Origin: Lobosporangium transversale
Lineage: Eukaryota; Mortierellomycota; Mortierellomycetes; Mortierellales; Mortierellaceae
Assembly: GCF_002105155.1 (NCBI RefSeq)
Contig: NW_019029027.1
Coordinates: forward strand, 186,001 to 250,000
Direction of reading: 5' to 3'
Length of the DNA: 64,000 bases
A program made the translations under genes and the position numbers. Below the pieces are notes generated by a model. The model saw only the letters and a program-made list of their open reading frames with translations. It had not been told where the DNA came from and ran no database searches. This document shows, one piece after another, positions 14,552 through 28,162 of the stretch (position 1 is its first letter; the number at the start of each line of letters is the position of its first letter).

Positions 14552-16310
14552 TTACTCAGCCCCTTCGATATCTTCATCGTCTTCATCGTCCTCATCACCA
14601 ATTGGTTCAATCAAAACACCATTCCGACTATCAATGGTGTTGGCAATAAGTGGTTGAAGGTGACGATCGAACGCTCCCTCAGAAACATCAATTGCCTGAA
14701 GATTACAGAGTAAATCTTCTTCACTCTGTGCCACCGGATCAGCTGCAAAAGACTCAGTTGGCTGGATGGCACGCTCGTTCATATATCTATTGCCCCAGTC
14801 GATAGTTTTTTTCCATGCAGCAATGAAAACTTTATTGGGAAGGCTCATGAAGAACTTCTCCAGCATCATAGTGAGAGTTTCGGCAGTCATCAATCCATGT
14901 GTGTTGTATGCCACCATATTCTTAATGACCCCCCAAATAATCTCGATGGGCTGAAGCTCGCAATGGTAAGGTGGGGTCTTCATGATCCAATGGCCACCAT
15001 TTTCAGATGCGATATCCCGAACAGTGTACCTCGGTTGATGCTCGATCGTTTTGAGATACTCAAGAAGCTCCCGCTTTGTTGGCTCAATGCCATCCCCTCG
15101 CGTACTTGACGGTATTTCTATTTCATGAGATCTCAGCCAATTTATAATCTCAGCCTTGCGGTTAAGGCTGGTTGGTTTTTTGTCCGGTGAATGGAAATGG
15201 TATTTAGCACCATCCATATGAATGATGCTAGATCTGAACCCCATCTCCACAAGGGTCTTACAAAGCTTCTCGAATAAAGCTTCGAACAACTGATGATTGA
15301 AATATCCATGATAGTCGTGGTCTGCAAAGATATTTCTATTGTCCCGCATATCGTCCCTTGACTGGTTTTGCTGAGCCGTCCTTACTTGGAGGGGTGCCTT
15401 CCCATGCGCTGGCCAAATGTGAACGCTGTCGTTCACGAATTTCCCAACCGTTTCCCCTTTATCCTCATCGTAATAAACTACAAATGCAGCAAACATTACG
15501 AGTAGTGGTTGGCGGGATGGTTCCTGCACAGGGTCGCCTCCGCGCTCAACCCATCGGTTTGCTGAGGAATGGTTGATATGGCAATAGCTCTCGTCAAGAA
15601 AAACTTCAGGCCGTATCGGTACTACCTTACCTTCGACCACTTTGAGATTAGAAAGGCGTTCGGTCAGGTACTTGTACCGATACTGCACGATCTGTGGAGA
15701 ATTGTGCATGATGGATTTCCTTACCCATCTCTTTCACCTTTCCACCACGTCCGACTCCCTTACAAGGCTTTCTCAAAATTCCGCTCTCGGCCCAATTTAT
15801 CGAAGCTCTGCACGAGCGGAGATTTATACCTGAAAGCCCAGACAATTGAGCGTTCCAGCCCGAGCCAAATGCGTCTTTTAACCACTTGTGGACTCCTTCA
15901 GGAGCTGCCTTCAAGCGAGAATATATTCTGGCAAGTAGAAGGTATTCCTCATTTGTCACGGCCTGTTTTCCACGAGACGGCAAGAGGGTGCTGCTTTCTT
16001 GCGATCCTGGATCAGCAGAATCTACAAATGGATTCTCATCATCAAAGAATGGGTCTGACTGGATGAATGACTGGCGCTCGAAATCGAGGATAGGCCCTTG
16101 GTATCCAGGGGAAGACTCAAGCCCAATGTACTGATGTGCTGGGGAAGGCCAGTGAGGCGATTCTCGAACATTGAGACTCCTGTAGCATTCTGTTTGTGCT
16201 CCCCTGTACCGATCTGTGGGTGAATTGGGTGGGCTAAAGTGATAGCGATGCGATCTGCTGTACCGATCGCTGGATGAATTGGATGAGTGGAAGGGATAAA
16301 TACGAGTCAT
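14552..16310 (-). CDS. DDE transposase, Tc1/mariner-like fold
   Basis: Exon 1 is 16310-15738 and exon 2 is 15691-14552, joined by a 46-bp intron (AAG/GTGAAA to CAG/ATC), giving about 570 residues. The donor is the least certain call: another GT at 15724 exists but breaks frame. The catalytic region has a first Asp in FLDESYCH, a second in HMDGAKYH, and Glu in CELQPIEIIWGVIKN, the pattern of DDE endonucleases of the IS630/Tc1/mariner superfamily. I count 89 residues between the second Asp and the Glu, far more than the classic 34. The N-terminal exon is Ser/Arg/Tyr-rich, with a helical segment that may bind DNA. The C-terminal tail is strongly acidic. The gene starts 235 bp inside the right repeat. 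No stop or frameshift interrupts it. Confidence 0.87.
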
Positions 16311-19171: not shown

Positions 19172-21104
19172 ATGTTGTCCATCACCAACGTTAATCTGCG
19201 ATATCGCAGGGTCGTCGTTGCCACCAAGGCAGCTATCACATCAACAATTCGCCCACTTCAAAAGCACCACTACACCCTCTACGATCTTCAATATGTCTTT
19301 CTCTTTGCGCTCTTCAGCTTCTGCTATTACATCATGGAGAAGCCGATCTGGTTCAAGCTGCCCATTGCACTTGGCGCTATTGGTCTATTGATCCCTCAAA
19401 AGACCCGTCAGTTTATGCTTCCGTTCCTTGCCATTGCTGCTTGGCTGGTGTTATTCTATTGTTGTCGTTATATCCCTGCAGAGTGGAGACCCCATATTTT
19501 TACATCTGTCCTTCCTACTCTTGAAAATATTCTTTATGGTGGTAACATCTCTGAACTTCTTGCCCAATCCACGTCCCCTGCAAAAGATCTTCTGGCGTGG
19601 ATGCCCTATGGAGTGCTACACTTTGCACTACCATTCATCACAGCGGCATTGATTGCATACTTTGGTCCCAAGGGCACTCTTCCCGTCTTTGCTCGTACCT
19701 TTGGTTACATGAATTTAGCAGGTGTTCTCACGCAACTGTTCTTTCCCTGTGCTCCACCATGTAAGCTTTGCTGATGTTCATGAGAATGCTTGCAGCACAC
19801 TTGAAAAAATTTAAGGCATCTATTTTAACATTTTAGTTTCCTCTTTGGTTTTTTATCATAACGTCGGTTGATCAGGGTACGAAACCAATTATGGTGCATT
19901 GGAGCCTGCAACCTATTCTATGCCCGGTAGTCCCGGTGGGCTTGCTCGTGTCGATGAGATTTTGGGACTAAATATGTACAAATCCACCTTCACGGCATCA
20001 CCTTTAGTATTTGGCGCATTCCCTTCATTACACTCTGCCTGTGCCTGGCAGCTTGCTTTCTTCCTTGTCTTTATCTTTGGTCCCCGCTCTGTGCCATTCG
20101 TGGTCGGATACGTCTTTTGGATATGGTGGGCAACCATGTACCTTGGTCATCATTACGTTGTTGACTTGGTTGGAGGCGCTGGATATGCTGTCGTCGCCTT
20201 CTGGATTGGCTCTTTTTTCTTGCCTTCAGTCCTTCCTCAACATCACAACGCCAAGGCTGCATACGTCATTCATGATTTGGGCGATGCAATGAGCCACCAG
20301 GAAAAACAATTACTTTTTAATGCGGCTCATGATGACTTTGCTGAGAACGCCACATGGGTTCAGGATGATGACGGCAATGGTGACATTGAGGAAATGGCCA
20401 AAGTGGTCGTGGTCTCTGTCGAACCTGAGATGGAGGAATGCAATCTAATTCAGTCTTCATCCGCACCATCCTCACCCACGGTTGGATCTGCTCCCAGGAA
20501 GAATAGTCAGTATCGTCAGAGCTGGAACGGTTGGCAAGGATATGAGTCTTGGATGGAAGTCCTTGCCACTATCAACTCTCCACGTGCCTCTCCTCGCACT
20601 TCGCCCACATCCACCCCTCGCCACTCTATTACTCATGTTCACGGATATAATAGTCGCTCCCGTCTCAGCCGCGAGTCAACCCATTCAACCGGATCTGTTA
20701 CTACTCTTGATCTAGACAAGGAGGTAAATGTGGCCATGGTTCAAGGCTCTTCGTCATCGAAGCGTGATTCGTTCCTGAATATGGCTTCTATTCCCTCACC
20801 GCTAGCAGCAATCGAAGAGGATGCTGTTAGCAGTTTAAATGCAATTAATGTGGCCACGGGTCGATCTCGGCCCAGTCGTTTGATTCTGGAACACGGCCAA
20901 AATACCCTTTACTCTGGATCAATGCCCAATAGCCCTGCAATGGTTGTTGCCGAATCAAATGCCGAATCAAATGCCGAATCGAGCCAATCAAGCCAATCGA
21001 GTCATTCAAGTCAATCAACCAGCTCATCCAGACCTATATCTCCTCGATCATTTGTTGCTGATAGTTCTTCGCTTGCTCTTGGCAAGCGCTATAAGGATGA
21101 ATAA
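19172..21104 (+). CDS. AUR1: Inositol phosphorylceramide synthase, catalytic subunit
   Basis: This enzyme transfers phosphoinositol from phosphatidylinositol to ceramide in the Golgi. It is essential in yeast and is the target of aureobasidin A. Two exons (19172-19760, 19876-21104) give 605 residues; the Trp codon at the junction is split. About six to eight membrane helices occupy residues 45-325. The PAP2-type motifs are clear: GAFPSLHSACAW with H249, then GHHYVVDLVGG with H289 and D293, matching the H/H/D triad of yeast Aur1. The tail after about residue 330 is long, Ser/Thr/Pro-rich and presumably cytosolic. It includes a short tandem repeat (AESN units near 20953-20990) and stretches of Ser-Gln-Ser. 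Yeast Aur1 is about 400 residues, so this tail is an extension. Confidence 0.95.
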
Positions 21105-21512: not shown

Positions 21513-24500
21513 ATGCAGCCTCTTGTGTATACGAATCAAGACGAACTATCGGACCACTTCCGGAAATTTTTTGAAGACTGTCCGCTCGACCTCGAAAAGA
21601 ATGCTATTCCGTTTGAAAGGACTTCTGATACGGCTCACTTTAAATCTGTTCTGACAGTGCCTCAGACTGCAACGCAGTTCAACACCCCACCAGCTGCTAC
21701 TACTATACCTTCAAACCAGTCTGCCACCAATGCAGCCTTACTTCTTAATCTCGACCCCGGTACGGAAGAGGCCCTCTGCAGGACTATCGCTGGCGATTTT
21801 TACAGCCATACACGCAATCGACTCGAGTATGAAATCAAGTCTGTTCATCTTTTGCGAAACCCCCTTGTCTGGAGACGCTATCAAGCTGAGAAGCAACTCC
21901 GGAGGCAGTTAGCTGAACAAGATAGACTGGCCCGTACAAGGGCCCGATGCAACTCAAACAGTGATGAGAAAGATGATGTGGGCCCTACACAACTCTTCAG
22001 GGACGAAATATTGTATCACGGGACGCAACAGAGACGTATCCCCTCTATACTCCTCAATGGACTAGACCCACGGATGACTGTGCGAGCAATTTATGGCAAA
22101 GGCGTTTACTTCTCAGATTCGATCGAAAAGTGCATGCAGTATGTAGACAAGCAGACCAGTATGGATCAGGAATACTCGATTATCCTTTGCTGTGTCCTCT
22201 TGGGCAATGTCCTGGTTGAGCCATACGAAAGATCAAAACGAAACCTCACTCAGCAAACAATGTTCTTGCCAGAAGGCTATGACTCTGCTGTGGAGCAAGA
22301 TGTCTTCAAAGAATGGATTGTGTAAGTTTTCTTTCTTTCTTTCCTTCCTTCTTTTTTTTTTTTTTTTTTTTTTTTTGTTTTGTTTTGTCAATAAGCTAAT
22401 GCTTTTAATTACATTGTGCTCTATTTTAGTTTTGAAAAGTCACAGATTCTCCCACTCTGTGTTATTAACTTTACAGCATCCAACAATCCGGATAGTTTTT
22501 TCCGAATGACAGCGCATCAAGTCCTCTTCAATAACTCCAGTACATATCCTAGTGCCATCACGGACATTGCAAGGAGATGCACAGTGCCGACACCTACGGA
22601 TAACGGCCATCAACGGAGTCGAGATGAACTGAGCAAATCAGAACTTTGGAGAGCACCTGATTTTGCATTTAGAGCAATGTTGATTGGGATCTTTGACCTG
22701 CCAGGCAACCTCCCCACCACTCAAATACGGAACATTCACTTCGAACCCTCCAAAGAATGGGCCGTCCGCTTTATTGAGCCTTTATCAAATGAAGAAAAAT
22801 TCTTCTACATGAGCGATTCTAGTTACAACACGTTAATGGAGCTATTCAAAAATATTCAAGTACATATGGTACGCATGGAAAATAGAAAACAAGTAAACCG
22901 CGCACGCAGAACCATAGAAGAAAACCGCATAAATAGTCAGATTGACAATCTTCCTGATGGGCAAAAGTTGATCGAGACGATGGCCCTAGTAGGACCACAG
23001 CTCCATCGGATCCAAAGCGAGGGCAATACAATTACTCAGGAAATTGAACGAAACAAAAATCAACTGCTTGTTTCTGGGCGAGGGCATATCATACAAAGCC
23101 ATGAATTCCGGTTATTCATTCACCCATTGGAGCGAAAGCTTGAGGAGCTCAAGGCCATGCATAATGACCTGATGGCGCAGTTAGCACCATGGTCAAGAGA
23201 TGATTTGAATCGCGCCGAGCTTTTGCTCAAAGCAAAACAGGAGCTGCAAAAAGCGATAGACGGGGAGCTAGAGTGGGAGCAACGACAGCAGAAAGTGATT
23301 AGTGCTGAGAAGGCAAGGTCAAAGGCTCAAGGATTTTCATTGATCACAACTATCTCACTACAGCGCCTTGAATCGCATATTCGAAATGCTAAAGAGAGAC
23401 GCGAACTCTTAGAGAAGGGCAAGAGCTTCGAAATGAGCTTCCGCTTCACAGATGTCGAGATCGAGACTTCTTCATCTAAAGTTTGGCCTCAAATCGTAGC
23501 AGAAATGTTGCTACCAGTGGTGATGATGACTCATCTCAGTGACAATATCTTCGCACATTTAAATAACACCAGCAGGTGTTCGGAAAACCTTGAGATGAAT
23601 CGTGATAAGGAGGAAGCAAATGGTGGTCTTAGGGATGCTGGCGCTTGGTGGCATGCTGCTCCTCAGGCTCTTTTTCAGGAGCCAGCCGCAGCCTCGGTCT
23701 TCTGGCCGATTGATCCCCGTAGCAGGCTTACTAACCGCCGACTCATTCTATTGCAAGACTATGTTGAGTGGATGTTCATGGAGAAAGAGAACAGGACTCG
23801 AAAACGCGATAGACGCCTCAATCAAGGAACACCTTGGTCTAATAGCAGCTTAAACCCAACTGAAGAACTTTTACCCTCAGAACTACCGGGATTTATTCAA
23901 GCACAGTGGGATTTATTGGATCCAAGCATTCTTCATTCGATCCGGGGACTGTCAAGTCGGTTTGGGACTGTAGTATTTGACAGGAAGAAGCGACTAGAGG
24001 AATTAGCTCAAATGGGGAACGACCTGCTGAGTAACCTCTTTGTGGACGCAGAATACCATATGCTGATGGGGGATAGGCAATTATCTTCAGGTTCTTCCGG
24101 CACGCAGACATCGTCCACATTACCGCCTGTAGAATGTCCTATTTGCCAAGAGGCTCTTGAACTACCGGATCCTAATAGCTCATCATTACCAACAACAGCA
24201 GCACATGAAAAGGTTGTCAAGCTCAAAGGTTGTCGCCACTGTTTCCACGAGGAATGTATCAAGCAATGGTTCCAGTCCAAGGATGCGCAGCTGAAATGTC
24301 CCATGTGTAATACCTTATGTACAACAGAGGCCAAAGCAGGGGTAACTAAAAATGCCTTAGGTGGACGACCACAGAAGTTAGGGCCTAGTCCGGATGCTGT
24401 GATGGGTTATAGCTTTGATGTGCGTCTATGTTGTTACTTCATTTATATCATCATACCATCTCATGAAATTGAGGATCCGGAATACCCTAACAGGAGTGCA

Positions 24501-24956
24501 CGTCCACGCACCACCATCCACACGGACATTCGGTATGCCATCGTCCCATTTTCAGCGCGCCTAGGGCCTTTATTAATGATTCGGTTAATCGCTTTGTTTT
24601 ATTATGGGCACCTGTTCCGGGTTGGGCGCTCGATCACTCGGAATGTGGATAATGTTGTGACCTGGAATGGCATTCACCTTCGAACTAGCTTAACGGGCCA
24701 GTATGGTTTCCCGGCCCCCAATTTTGAGAGGAACTGTTGGCAAGAGATTAACCAGAAGGGTATAGCTATGGGATTAGAAGAACTTGTACTAGGCATGCCT
24801 CAATCGGATGGATCGATGTCAGCAGCAGTTGCATCAACATTGGACCCACAGGCTTTGAATGGGATCGCGTTACCAGCAGAAATCTTAGCCGAGCTAGCAG
24901 CAGAGGAGATGGTCGTCCGGATATTTCATGAGAATCGCCCTTTATTATTTACATAG
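21513..24956 (+). CDS. PARP catalytic domain - RING-H2 - Deltex C-terminal domain fusion
   Basis: Two exons (21513-22321, 22430-24956) give 1111 residues. The start is the first ATG; upstream only a GTG is in frame. Residues about 90-285 form a PARP-type ADP-ribosyltransferase: H169 in LYHGT, Y199 in YGKGVYFSDS, and E267 in KEWIVFEKSQ, an apparent H-Y-E triad. The last segment is completed across the intron, which confirms the join. Residues 290-835 are helical, with a charged stretch at about 440-620, and match nothing I know. A RING-H2 finger follows: C839, C842, C871, H873, H876, C879, C893, C896. Residues 929-1060 resemble a Deltex C-terminal domain: PEYPN, VGRS (S1004), VVTWNGIH (H1019), YGFPAPNF and E1042. 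Deltex RING-DTC modules bind ADP-ribose or NAD+ and direct ubiquitin to or from it. One chain could therefore write ADP-ribose and ubiquitylate the same target. The cellular role is unknown. Confidence 0.9.
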
Positions 24957-26431: not shown

Positions 26432-28162
26432 ATGCTCACAAATTATGGCTTCCTACTGTCAACTCTTTCTATGGCCCTGACACTCATCACTGTGTCTAAT
26501 GCGTCCCATCACGGTTTTTCAGACATCTCAGACAGCCCAGATACCTTATTCAATACCGTTATTAAATTCAAGCTCGATCGTACCGAGCTTTCTGGCCCAG
26601 GTCTGCGGAAATTTGCAGTCAGACCCTACGCGATCCATGAAGAAGGAGAATTGGGTCAAGGAGAACAAGAACAAATATTGCCCCTACAACAAGCCCTGCA
26701 GGAACAGCAACACAATGAACCTGTAGTTGCAGTCCCATTGACTGATATTCCCAAGCATTATGGATACACTGCAGTGTTCACCATTGGAACATATGATGGC
26801 TCTCAGGTATCTTCATCTTCAATACCTCCTCATTCCTCTGCTTCCAGATTTCCGTTCATTGCAAAAAGGCCCGACTACCTCTTCAACTTATTGGTGGATA
26901 CAGGTTCTGACCTAGTGGTTGTGACTTCGGCTAGCTGTGCAGATCCTGAATGTATCCAAGTACCCCATCGATATGACAGTTCACTCTCTCGGACAGCGAC
27001 GCTAGCAAAAAATATGTTGACAGGAGGCCATCGATGGGTTCAACAGTACGGTGATGGTACAATTGCGAATGGCACATTGTTTCAAGATACCCTTGGGTTT
27101 GTCTCTCCTGTCAACGCAGACAAACCTGGAGCTCAAGCTTCTATCACCGCATCTCTCACCACGGCGACGACGCTCCAAATCAAAAACCAACCTATCCTTG
27201 TGGTTGATCAACCTGGGCTGGGATTGACTAAGAGTTATGGCCATGGGGTAGATGGCATCATTGGGCTAAACCTACGTAGTCCTGTCATCTCCTCCACTGT
27301 AATCCAGAATCTTCAAAAGATTGAAGCTACTGCATCTGCAGCTAAAGCAGCCAAAGAAGCGGTAGCAGCAACCACACCATTATCTTCGCTATTGTCGTCA
27401 TCAGCTCGTCCAGTCCTTCATCATACACCAGCATTCTCGACAGATAGCAAGGCCGGAATGGGTATAATGAGTCTTTGGCTCTCTAAATCTCTTGAGCCGG
27501 GCCAGGGTGGTGAGCTGCTTTTGAATGCTGTGGACAAATCCCGGTTCCGTGAACCGATCCGTTGGAGCGCTCGAGGCCCTAGCCCCTATGATTGGTCTAT
27601 CATGATGGATAAAGGGATTCTTCTCTTTCTGGACCAAGAAAGCCCTGCGACCTCAACAACCACTGTAGGACTCCTTAAACCTAAAACTGCAACTGATTTT
27701 AGAGATAAAACAGCGCCAACGGCAACGGCGACAGTGACGGCTCAGGTATTGGTCCCTGGGACAGAGTATACGTATGCTGTGCTGGATTCTGGCTCTGATG
27801 GTATCTATCTTGCAAAGTCCACTTACCATGCCTTTTTTCAACATGTCCCTGGCGCAAGGCAGCTCAAGAGCGGGTACTGGCGTGTTCCCTGTGAAGGAAC
27901 TACGGAATTGGCGTTTGGAATAGAAGGAATGCTCTATAAGGTTCCATATCAGGATTGGGTCAAGAAACCGAATGAAACGGTCTCAAGTGCCAGTGCTGCC
28001 CTTACACAAGCAGAATTAGGGCCTGGAATGTGCCAGTCCAGAGTCTTTGGTAGCTCGCCAGGCCCAACGTTGCTGGGAACAGTATTTCTAAGAGCTGTTT
28101 ATACAGTTTTTGACTTTTCTAGACCTGGACATGAGCGTATGGGATTTGCGGCCCTTGCTTGA
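26432..28162 (+). CDS. Secreted pepsin-type aspartic protease
   Basis: This intronless gene encodes 576 residues of peptidase family A1. It starts with a hydrophobic signal peptide (about residues 1-25, ending near VSNASHH), followed by a propeptide rich in Gln/Glu. The N-lobe has the catalytic Asp in LLVDTGSD (D156) and a flap Tyr in QQYGDGT. The C-lobe has the second Asp in AVLDSGSD (D452) and the closing LGTVFLRAVYTVFDF block. Both active-site triplets are intact. There is no obvious membrane anchor or GPI signal at the C-terminus (ends GFAALA), so secretion or vacuolar delivery is likely. An inserted Ala/Ser-rich loop (about residues 290-345) separates the lobes. The lack of introns contrasts with most neighbours. 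Substrate preference cannot be inferred. Confidence 0.93.
   Translation: MLTNYGFLLSTLSMALTLITVSNASHHGFSDISDSPDTLFNTVIKFKLDRTELSGPGLRKFAVRPYAIHEEGELGQGEQEQILPLQQALQEQQHNEPVVAVPLTDIPKHYGYTAVFTIGTYDGSQVSSSSIPPHSSASRFPFIAKRPDYLFNLLVDTGSDLVVVTSASCADPECIQVPHRYDSSLSRTATLAKNMLTGGHRWVQQYGDGTIANGTLFQDTLGFVSPVNADKPGAQASITASLTTATTLQIKNQPILVVDQPGLGLTKSYGHGVDGIIGLNLRSPVISSTVIQNLQKIEATASAAKAAKEAVAATTPLSSLLSSSARPVLHHTPAFSTDSKAGMGIMSLWLSKSLEPGQGGELLLNAVDKSRFREPIRWSARGPSPYDWSIMMDKGILLFLDQESPATSTTTVGLLKPKTATDFRDKTAPTATATVTAQVLVPGTEYTYAVLDSGSDGIYLAKSTYHAFFQHVPGARQLKSGYWRVPCEGTTELAFGIEGMLYKVPYQDWVKKPNETVSSASAALTQAELGPGMCQSRVFGSSPGPTLLGTVFLRAVYTVFDFSRPGHERMGFAALA

Follow-up and report, generated by a model that had tools for sequence, protein, structure and literature searches.

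The ADP-ribosyl-ubiquitin hybrid mark is a recent discovery, and in human cells the pairings of PARPs with DELTEX ligases are still under study. The human ligases DTX1, DTX2, DTX4 and DTX3L carry a RING domain followed by a DTC domain. A PARP-fold protein and a RING-DTC ligase also meet in the human PARP9/DTX3L complex (with PARP14), in which the partners are separate chains. For PARP7 and DTX2, a two-step order has been described on the androgen receptor, namely ADP-ribosylation followed by DTX recognition and ubiquitylation (PMC12402299). The fungal PARPs described so far were assigned to clade 1 (PARP1-like) and clade 6A (PARP-UBCc), and clade 6 was reported to lack the catalytic glutamate (PMC2964712). 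Here, we describe a gene in a stretch of 64,000 nucleotides of the fungus Lobosporangium transversale (Mortierellomycota; contig NW_019029027.1, positions 186,001 to 250,000; the whole stretch is called the window). Its two exons encode a single protein of 1111 residues, in which an N-terminal PARP domain is followed by a helix-rich middle, a RING-H2 domain and a C-terminal DTC domain.

Like the human DELTEX ligases, the fungal protein has the RING followed by the DTC domain and contains the equivalents of DTX2 H582 and E608. Its RING-H2 is of the type reported for DTX1/2/4 (PMC8424196), and it has a tyrosine at the position of DTX2 H594, as does DTX3L with Y719. It differs from the human ligases by the N-terminal PARP domain, a pocket loop that is three residues shorter, an additional C-terminal tail, and the lack of any Pfam match to WWE at E values of up to 1 in the 1111-residue protein; WWE is absent from DTX3L, too (PMC11460948). 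Compared with PARP9/DTX3L it resembles a one-chain version of the complex; however, PARP9 is described as inactive, whereas the fungal H-Y-E triad is kept, and, in contrast to the complex, no macrodomain was matched by Pfam in the fungal chain. The order of events proposed below is that of PARP7 and DTX2, but these two proteins act in trans, and PARP7 is a mono-ADP-ribosyltransferase, whereas the fungal PARP has the catalytic glutamate. The nearest fungal precedent is the clade 6A PARP-UBCc protein, in which a PARP is also fused to a ubiquitin-pathway domain (PMC2964712). However, that domain is of the ubiquitin-conjugating (E2) type and its PARP lacks the catalytic glutamate, whereas the L. 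transversale protein has a ubiquitin ligase (E3) module, RING-DTC, and an intact H-Y-E triad including E267, and Pfam found no UBCc in it at E values of up to 1. Dictyostelium DDB0232928 likewise has an E3-type domain in the same chain as a PARP (PMC2964712), but with a U-box and a macrodomain instead of RING-DTC.

A survey of Notch components from 2009, in which four fungi were sampled, called Deltex holozoan-specific (PMC2770060), and the main text of a broad PARP survey from 2014 mentions links to ubiquitin without the word "Deltex" (PMC4245714). No description of a PARP-Deltex fusion or of a fungal Deltex was found in the open-access literature, a description in a subscription journal being possible. 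This agrees with a preliminary description of the same DNA, made from the sequence alone, according to which no such fungal system had been described.

Gene structure and domain layout

The gene and its parts are as follows (window coordinates, all on the plus strand).

21513..24956, +, PARP-RING-DTC gene from start codon to stop, 1111 amino acids after removal of one intron (open reading frame translation, identical public protein)
21513..22321, +, exon 1, encoding residues 1-269 plus two bases of codon 270 (N-terminal helices, bulk of the PARP domain)
22322..22429, +, intron GTAAGT...TTTTAG, interrupting the PARP domain
22430..24956, +, exon 2, remainder of codon 270 through the stop
21726..22490, +, predicted PARP/ADP-ribosyltransferase (ART) catalytic domain, residues 72-290, intron included (Pfam, structure model with fold comparison, alignments)
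22017-22019, 22107-22109 and 22311-22313, +, putative PARP triad H169, Y199 and E267 (alignments)
22491..24110, +, middle, residues 291-830, composed of a small alpha/beta part, a stretch of long helices (about 399-600) and a further, mostly helical region (structure model)
24135..24308, +, RING-H2 with C839, C842, C871, H873, H876, C879, C893 and C896 (Pfam)
24396..24794, +, predicted DTC domain, residues 926-1058 (Pfam, profile alignment to DTX2/DTX1/DTX3L, conservation)
24675-24677 and 24744-24746, +, DTC sites H1019 (DTX2 H582) and E1042 (DTX2 E608)
24702-24704, +, DTC site Y1028 (DTX2 H594, DTX3L Y719)
24795..24953, +, C-terminal extension after the DTC domain, residues 1059-1111 (alignment, model confidence)

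The spliced product was 100% identical over its full length to a public L. transversale protein, and the two exons and their phase-consistent join, as given in the preliminary description, were confirmed. The public record bears the name "putative E3 ubiquitin-protein ligase dtx2", a second source names the protein after its RING domain, and several public relatives already carry the names dtx2 or dtx3l. In a Pfam scan of the 1111-residue protein, PARP, RING and DTC all scored above their cut-offs. A profile test that was able to overturn the preliminary description thus accepted both PARP (PF00644, 51.6 bits, cut-off 26.7) and DTC (39.9 bits, cut-off 25), and five RING models passed as well. 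The predicted structure of the PARP domain showed the ART fold in a fold comparison, and the DTX2 structure 6y22 was aligned across RING and DTC by profile alignment (E 4.5e-17). The claim that one polypeptide joins a PARP domain to a Deltex-type RING-DTC ligase was borne out, and this anatomy is well supported, the PARP fold being predicted by the structure model and the RING-DTC module by profiles.

Protein searches returned 50 proteins, which form the basis of all family counts. Both PARP and DTC were present in 41 of them, under 31 species or strain names, and 36 of the 41 retain everything, i.e. the PARP triad, the full set of RING ligands and the His-Glu pair of the DTC domain. The combination claimed for one fungus is therefore strongly supported and extends to 41 proteins. 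The carriers are a family of soil fungi.

The intron is located between the strand with the catalytic glutamate (KEWIV) and the last PARP strand (FEKSQILPLCVINF), and exon 1 alone would thus encode an incomplete fold. Because the PARP fold is interrupted by the intron, the two halves are not two genes, which weighs against two separate transcripts. Seven returned proteins contain DTC without PARP. In four of them (P0034, P0042, P0044, P0046) the homology starts at the first residue past the intron, as expected from gene calling at exon 2, and the intron position therefore looks common to the relatives; the homology of P0040 starts ten residues beyond this residue, and that of P0033 and P0041 further in. 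An artefact in which two adjacent genes were fused by mistake would fit the observations that exon 1 by itself forms an open frame, that the unspliced intron has an in-frame stop immediately past the splice site, and that the public family models P0004, P0005, P0037 and P0045 do join neighbours. However, the PARP fold requires the strand beyond the intron, the relatives appear to share the intron position, and the identical join was found in all 41 proteins, so that we consider such an artefact extremely improbable.

Conservation of the active sites

Identity across the family was about 59-67% for PARP, RING and DTC, and about 64-67% for PARP and DTC, compared to 26% for residues 291-680. Judged from these alignments, PARP and DTC are inherited together and are far better conserved than the middle.

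Within the PARP domain, H169 and Y199 were found in 41/41 proteins and E267 in 39/41, the two remaining proteins (P0017 and P0032, both disturbed at the intron) having gaps. E267 aligned with the glutamate of PARP1 YNEYIVYD. Profile, structure model and alignment thus agree with the H169/Y199/E267 motifs noted in the preliminary description. G170, T171, K206 and C207 were each present in 41/41 and Y210 in 40/41; by profile alignment, K206, C207 and Y210 correspond to the PARP1 residues that we take to be K903, S904 and Y907. The closest PARP reference was PARP12, of clade 3 (PARP7/10-15 type), yet PARP1 was at most 4 bits and the tankyrases about 1-1.5 Z behind (profile and fold comparison). 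Neither WGR nor the PARP regulatory domain was matched by Pfam at E values of up to 1, unlike in the fungal clade 1 PARP. The H-Y-E triad permits poly-ADP-ribose formation without proving a poly over a mono product.

The RING ligands were complete in 40/41 proteins, P0015 lacking the first two, and the full RING-H2 from C839 to C896 proposed earlier is upheld. DTC residues were mapped by profile alignment to DTX2, with the DTX2 residues counted against published numbers. H1019 was present in 41/41 and E1042 in 39/41 proteins, and, with the profile match and the His-Glu pair in place, a C-terminal Deltex domain had been recognized correctly. In DTX2, His582 and Glu608 are important for the ubiquitylation of NAD+ (nicotinamide adenine dinucleotide) and ADP-ribose, and Glu608 makes no contact to the ligand (PMC7615817). 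ADP-ribose is bound by His594 of DTX2, the equivalent of DTX3L Tyr719 (PMC11460948).

One of the domains might be a non-catalytic relic. A PARP fold, for example, might serve just to bind NAD+ or a partner, as in the pairing of PARP9 with DTX3L in humans. In PARP9 the triad has been lost, and the protein has been reported as inactive (PMC2964712); a review gives it no assigned catalytic activity (PMC12687431). In contrast, the fungal triad is intact in each of the 39 proteins (out of 41) without a gap at its third position, the His-Glu pair of the DTC domain is present in 39/41, and both domains exceed residues 291-680 by far in identity. A relic is thus very unlikely.

Two observations on individual family members were also made. 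P0035, P0037, P0043, P0045, P0047, P0049 and P0050 form a second, more diverged group within the PARP-RING-DTC family. P0038 (Mortierella sp. 14UC), of 621 residues, has the PARP part but lacks a DTC domain as well as a residue equivalent to E267; either the gene is truncated or the model is broken.

A proposed two-step reaction

Based on the sequence, we propose, with a probability of roughly 0.6, that the protein unites an ADP-ribose writer and a DELTEX-type ubiquitin ligase in a single chain, by which a target is ADP-ribosylated and then ubiquitylated, probably on the ADP-ribose. The PARP domain would use NAD+ to place ADP-ribose either on the protein itself or on a target, which the helical middle would perhaps recruit. 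The DTC domain of the same chain would take up the ADP-ribose, the RING would deliver ubiquitin from E2~ubiquitin, and H1019 and E1042 would activate the 3'-hydroxyl, such that ubiquitin would be esterified to ADP-ribose. With writer and ligase in one chain, the second step would follow the first. Automodification of recombinant PARP10 followed by ubiquitylation by DTX2 has been reconstituted (reviewed in PMC12687431), and ubiquitylation of single-stranded DNA by DTX3L requires RING and DTC on one chain (PMC11460948). We see an even chance that the protein is, beyond this, a self-contained "MAR-ubiquitylase", which would turn NAD+, ATP and ubiquitin into target-ADP-ribose-ubiquitin in cis; the mark would then have evolved as a dedicated signal outside animals, and DELTEX chemistry would reach beyond holozoans.

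Several observations weigh against the two-step reaction. E1042 is replaced by glycine in P0037, whose model is fused to ribosomal protein L24, and by a gap in P0049, a partial protein. The ADP-ribose-binding position 1028 varies, with Y in 24, F in 9 and H in 8 of the 41 proteins, and the shorter loop from H1019 to Y1028 was modelled with a predicted local distance difference test (pLDDT) score below 50. Position 1005, which is aligned with DTX2 S568, presumably an ADP-ribose contact, is L in 29, V in 6, I in 4 and A in 2 of the 41 proteins, and Ser in none. In all 41 proteins, a cysteine (C207) stands opposite PARP1 S904, so that one nicotinamide contact would be Cys instead of Ser. Lastly, the RING may modify mainly lysine.

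Alternatively, ADP-ribose could be a local tag: the PARP would mark the target, the DTC domain would only read the mark, and the RING would ubiquitylate nearby lysines, the product being a normally ubiquitylated ADP-ribosylated protein. The near-complete set of RING ligands across the family fits this explanation, as do a poly-ADP-ribose-targeted ubiquitylation activity described for DTX2 (PMC7615817) and the stronger drift of position 1028, a binding position, compared to the catalytic pair. However, a pure reader would have no obvious need for the His-Glu pair, yet the histidine is invariant, and the equivalent of E1042, which does not contact ADP-ribose but matters for hydroxyl ubiquitylation by DTX2 (PMC7615817), is kept in 39/41 proteins. 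A local tag is therefore regarded as unlikely.

The middle (residues 291-830) gave no match in a comparison with known families. Its helices at about 399-600 are read as a coiled coil in the structure model. Although residues 291-680 drift, the middle is still present in most of the aligned members. This bears on another explanation, i.e. that the PARP is self-limiting: through auto-ADP-ribosylation it would acquire a site at which its own DTC domain could dock, and ubiquitylation would turn over or switch the enzyme, the fusion being a timer and not a targeting device. The reconstituted PARP10-DTX2 sequence (PMC12687431) is a precedent, and the union in one chain, together with the long helical middle, would permit self-modification. 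In contrast, retention of such a fast-drifting middle hints at a role of its own, and self-limitation appears even less likely than a local tag. Many family members finish with an FHxxxPLLF-like motif in the C-terminal tail (residues 1059-1111), which has a pLDDT of about 80 in the model and may pack onto the protein or bind a partner.

Genomic setting and significance

When the 42.7 Mb assembly was searched in six frames, the gene was the single DTC match and one of two PARP matches. The second PARP is located on contig C41 (G000:C41:82717-86340, L002), where BRCT, WGR, PARP_reg and PARP scored above the Pfam cut-offs in neighbouring open frames; on account of these domains it is PARP1-like. 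Matches to PARG (two loci), ADP-ribosylglycohydrolase/ARH-like proteins (two loci) and a macrodomain (one locus) were found at G000:C62 289142-290126, C74 91047-91825, C1 620296-622011, C34 156085-157551 and C84 617372-617830, and ADP-ribose erasers are thus likely present in the genome.

In the window, a PAP2-type phosphatase match lies directly upstream of the gene (19899-21104, plus strand), and an open frame at 14552-15709 (minus strand) gave a match to DDE_3 transposase. An aspartyl protease gene (PF00026) is located downstream (26432-28162). The public relatives P0004 and P0005 each contain PF00026 in addition to PARP and DTC, which, together with the downstream protease, suggests that the neighbourhood is kept and that these two models are false fusions. 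P0037 and P0045 are annotated as joined to ribosomal protein L24, probably also a false join.

The PARP-RING-DTC protein is a new combination of two known kinds of enzymes in a lineage from which Deltex was said to be missing, and its sequence is conserved enough for a working module. A natural fusion of writer and ligase, with both active sites kept family-wide, is independent evidence from evolution that the two reactions go together. It offers biochemists a fixed PARP-DELTEX pairing in one protein, which could be tested in budding yeast, described as having no PARPs of its own (PMC2964712). The range of Deltex is extended past the holozoans, to which the 2009 survey with its four fungi had confined it (PMC2770060), and a further type of fungal PARP now stands beside clade 1 and clade 6A.
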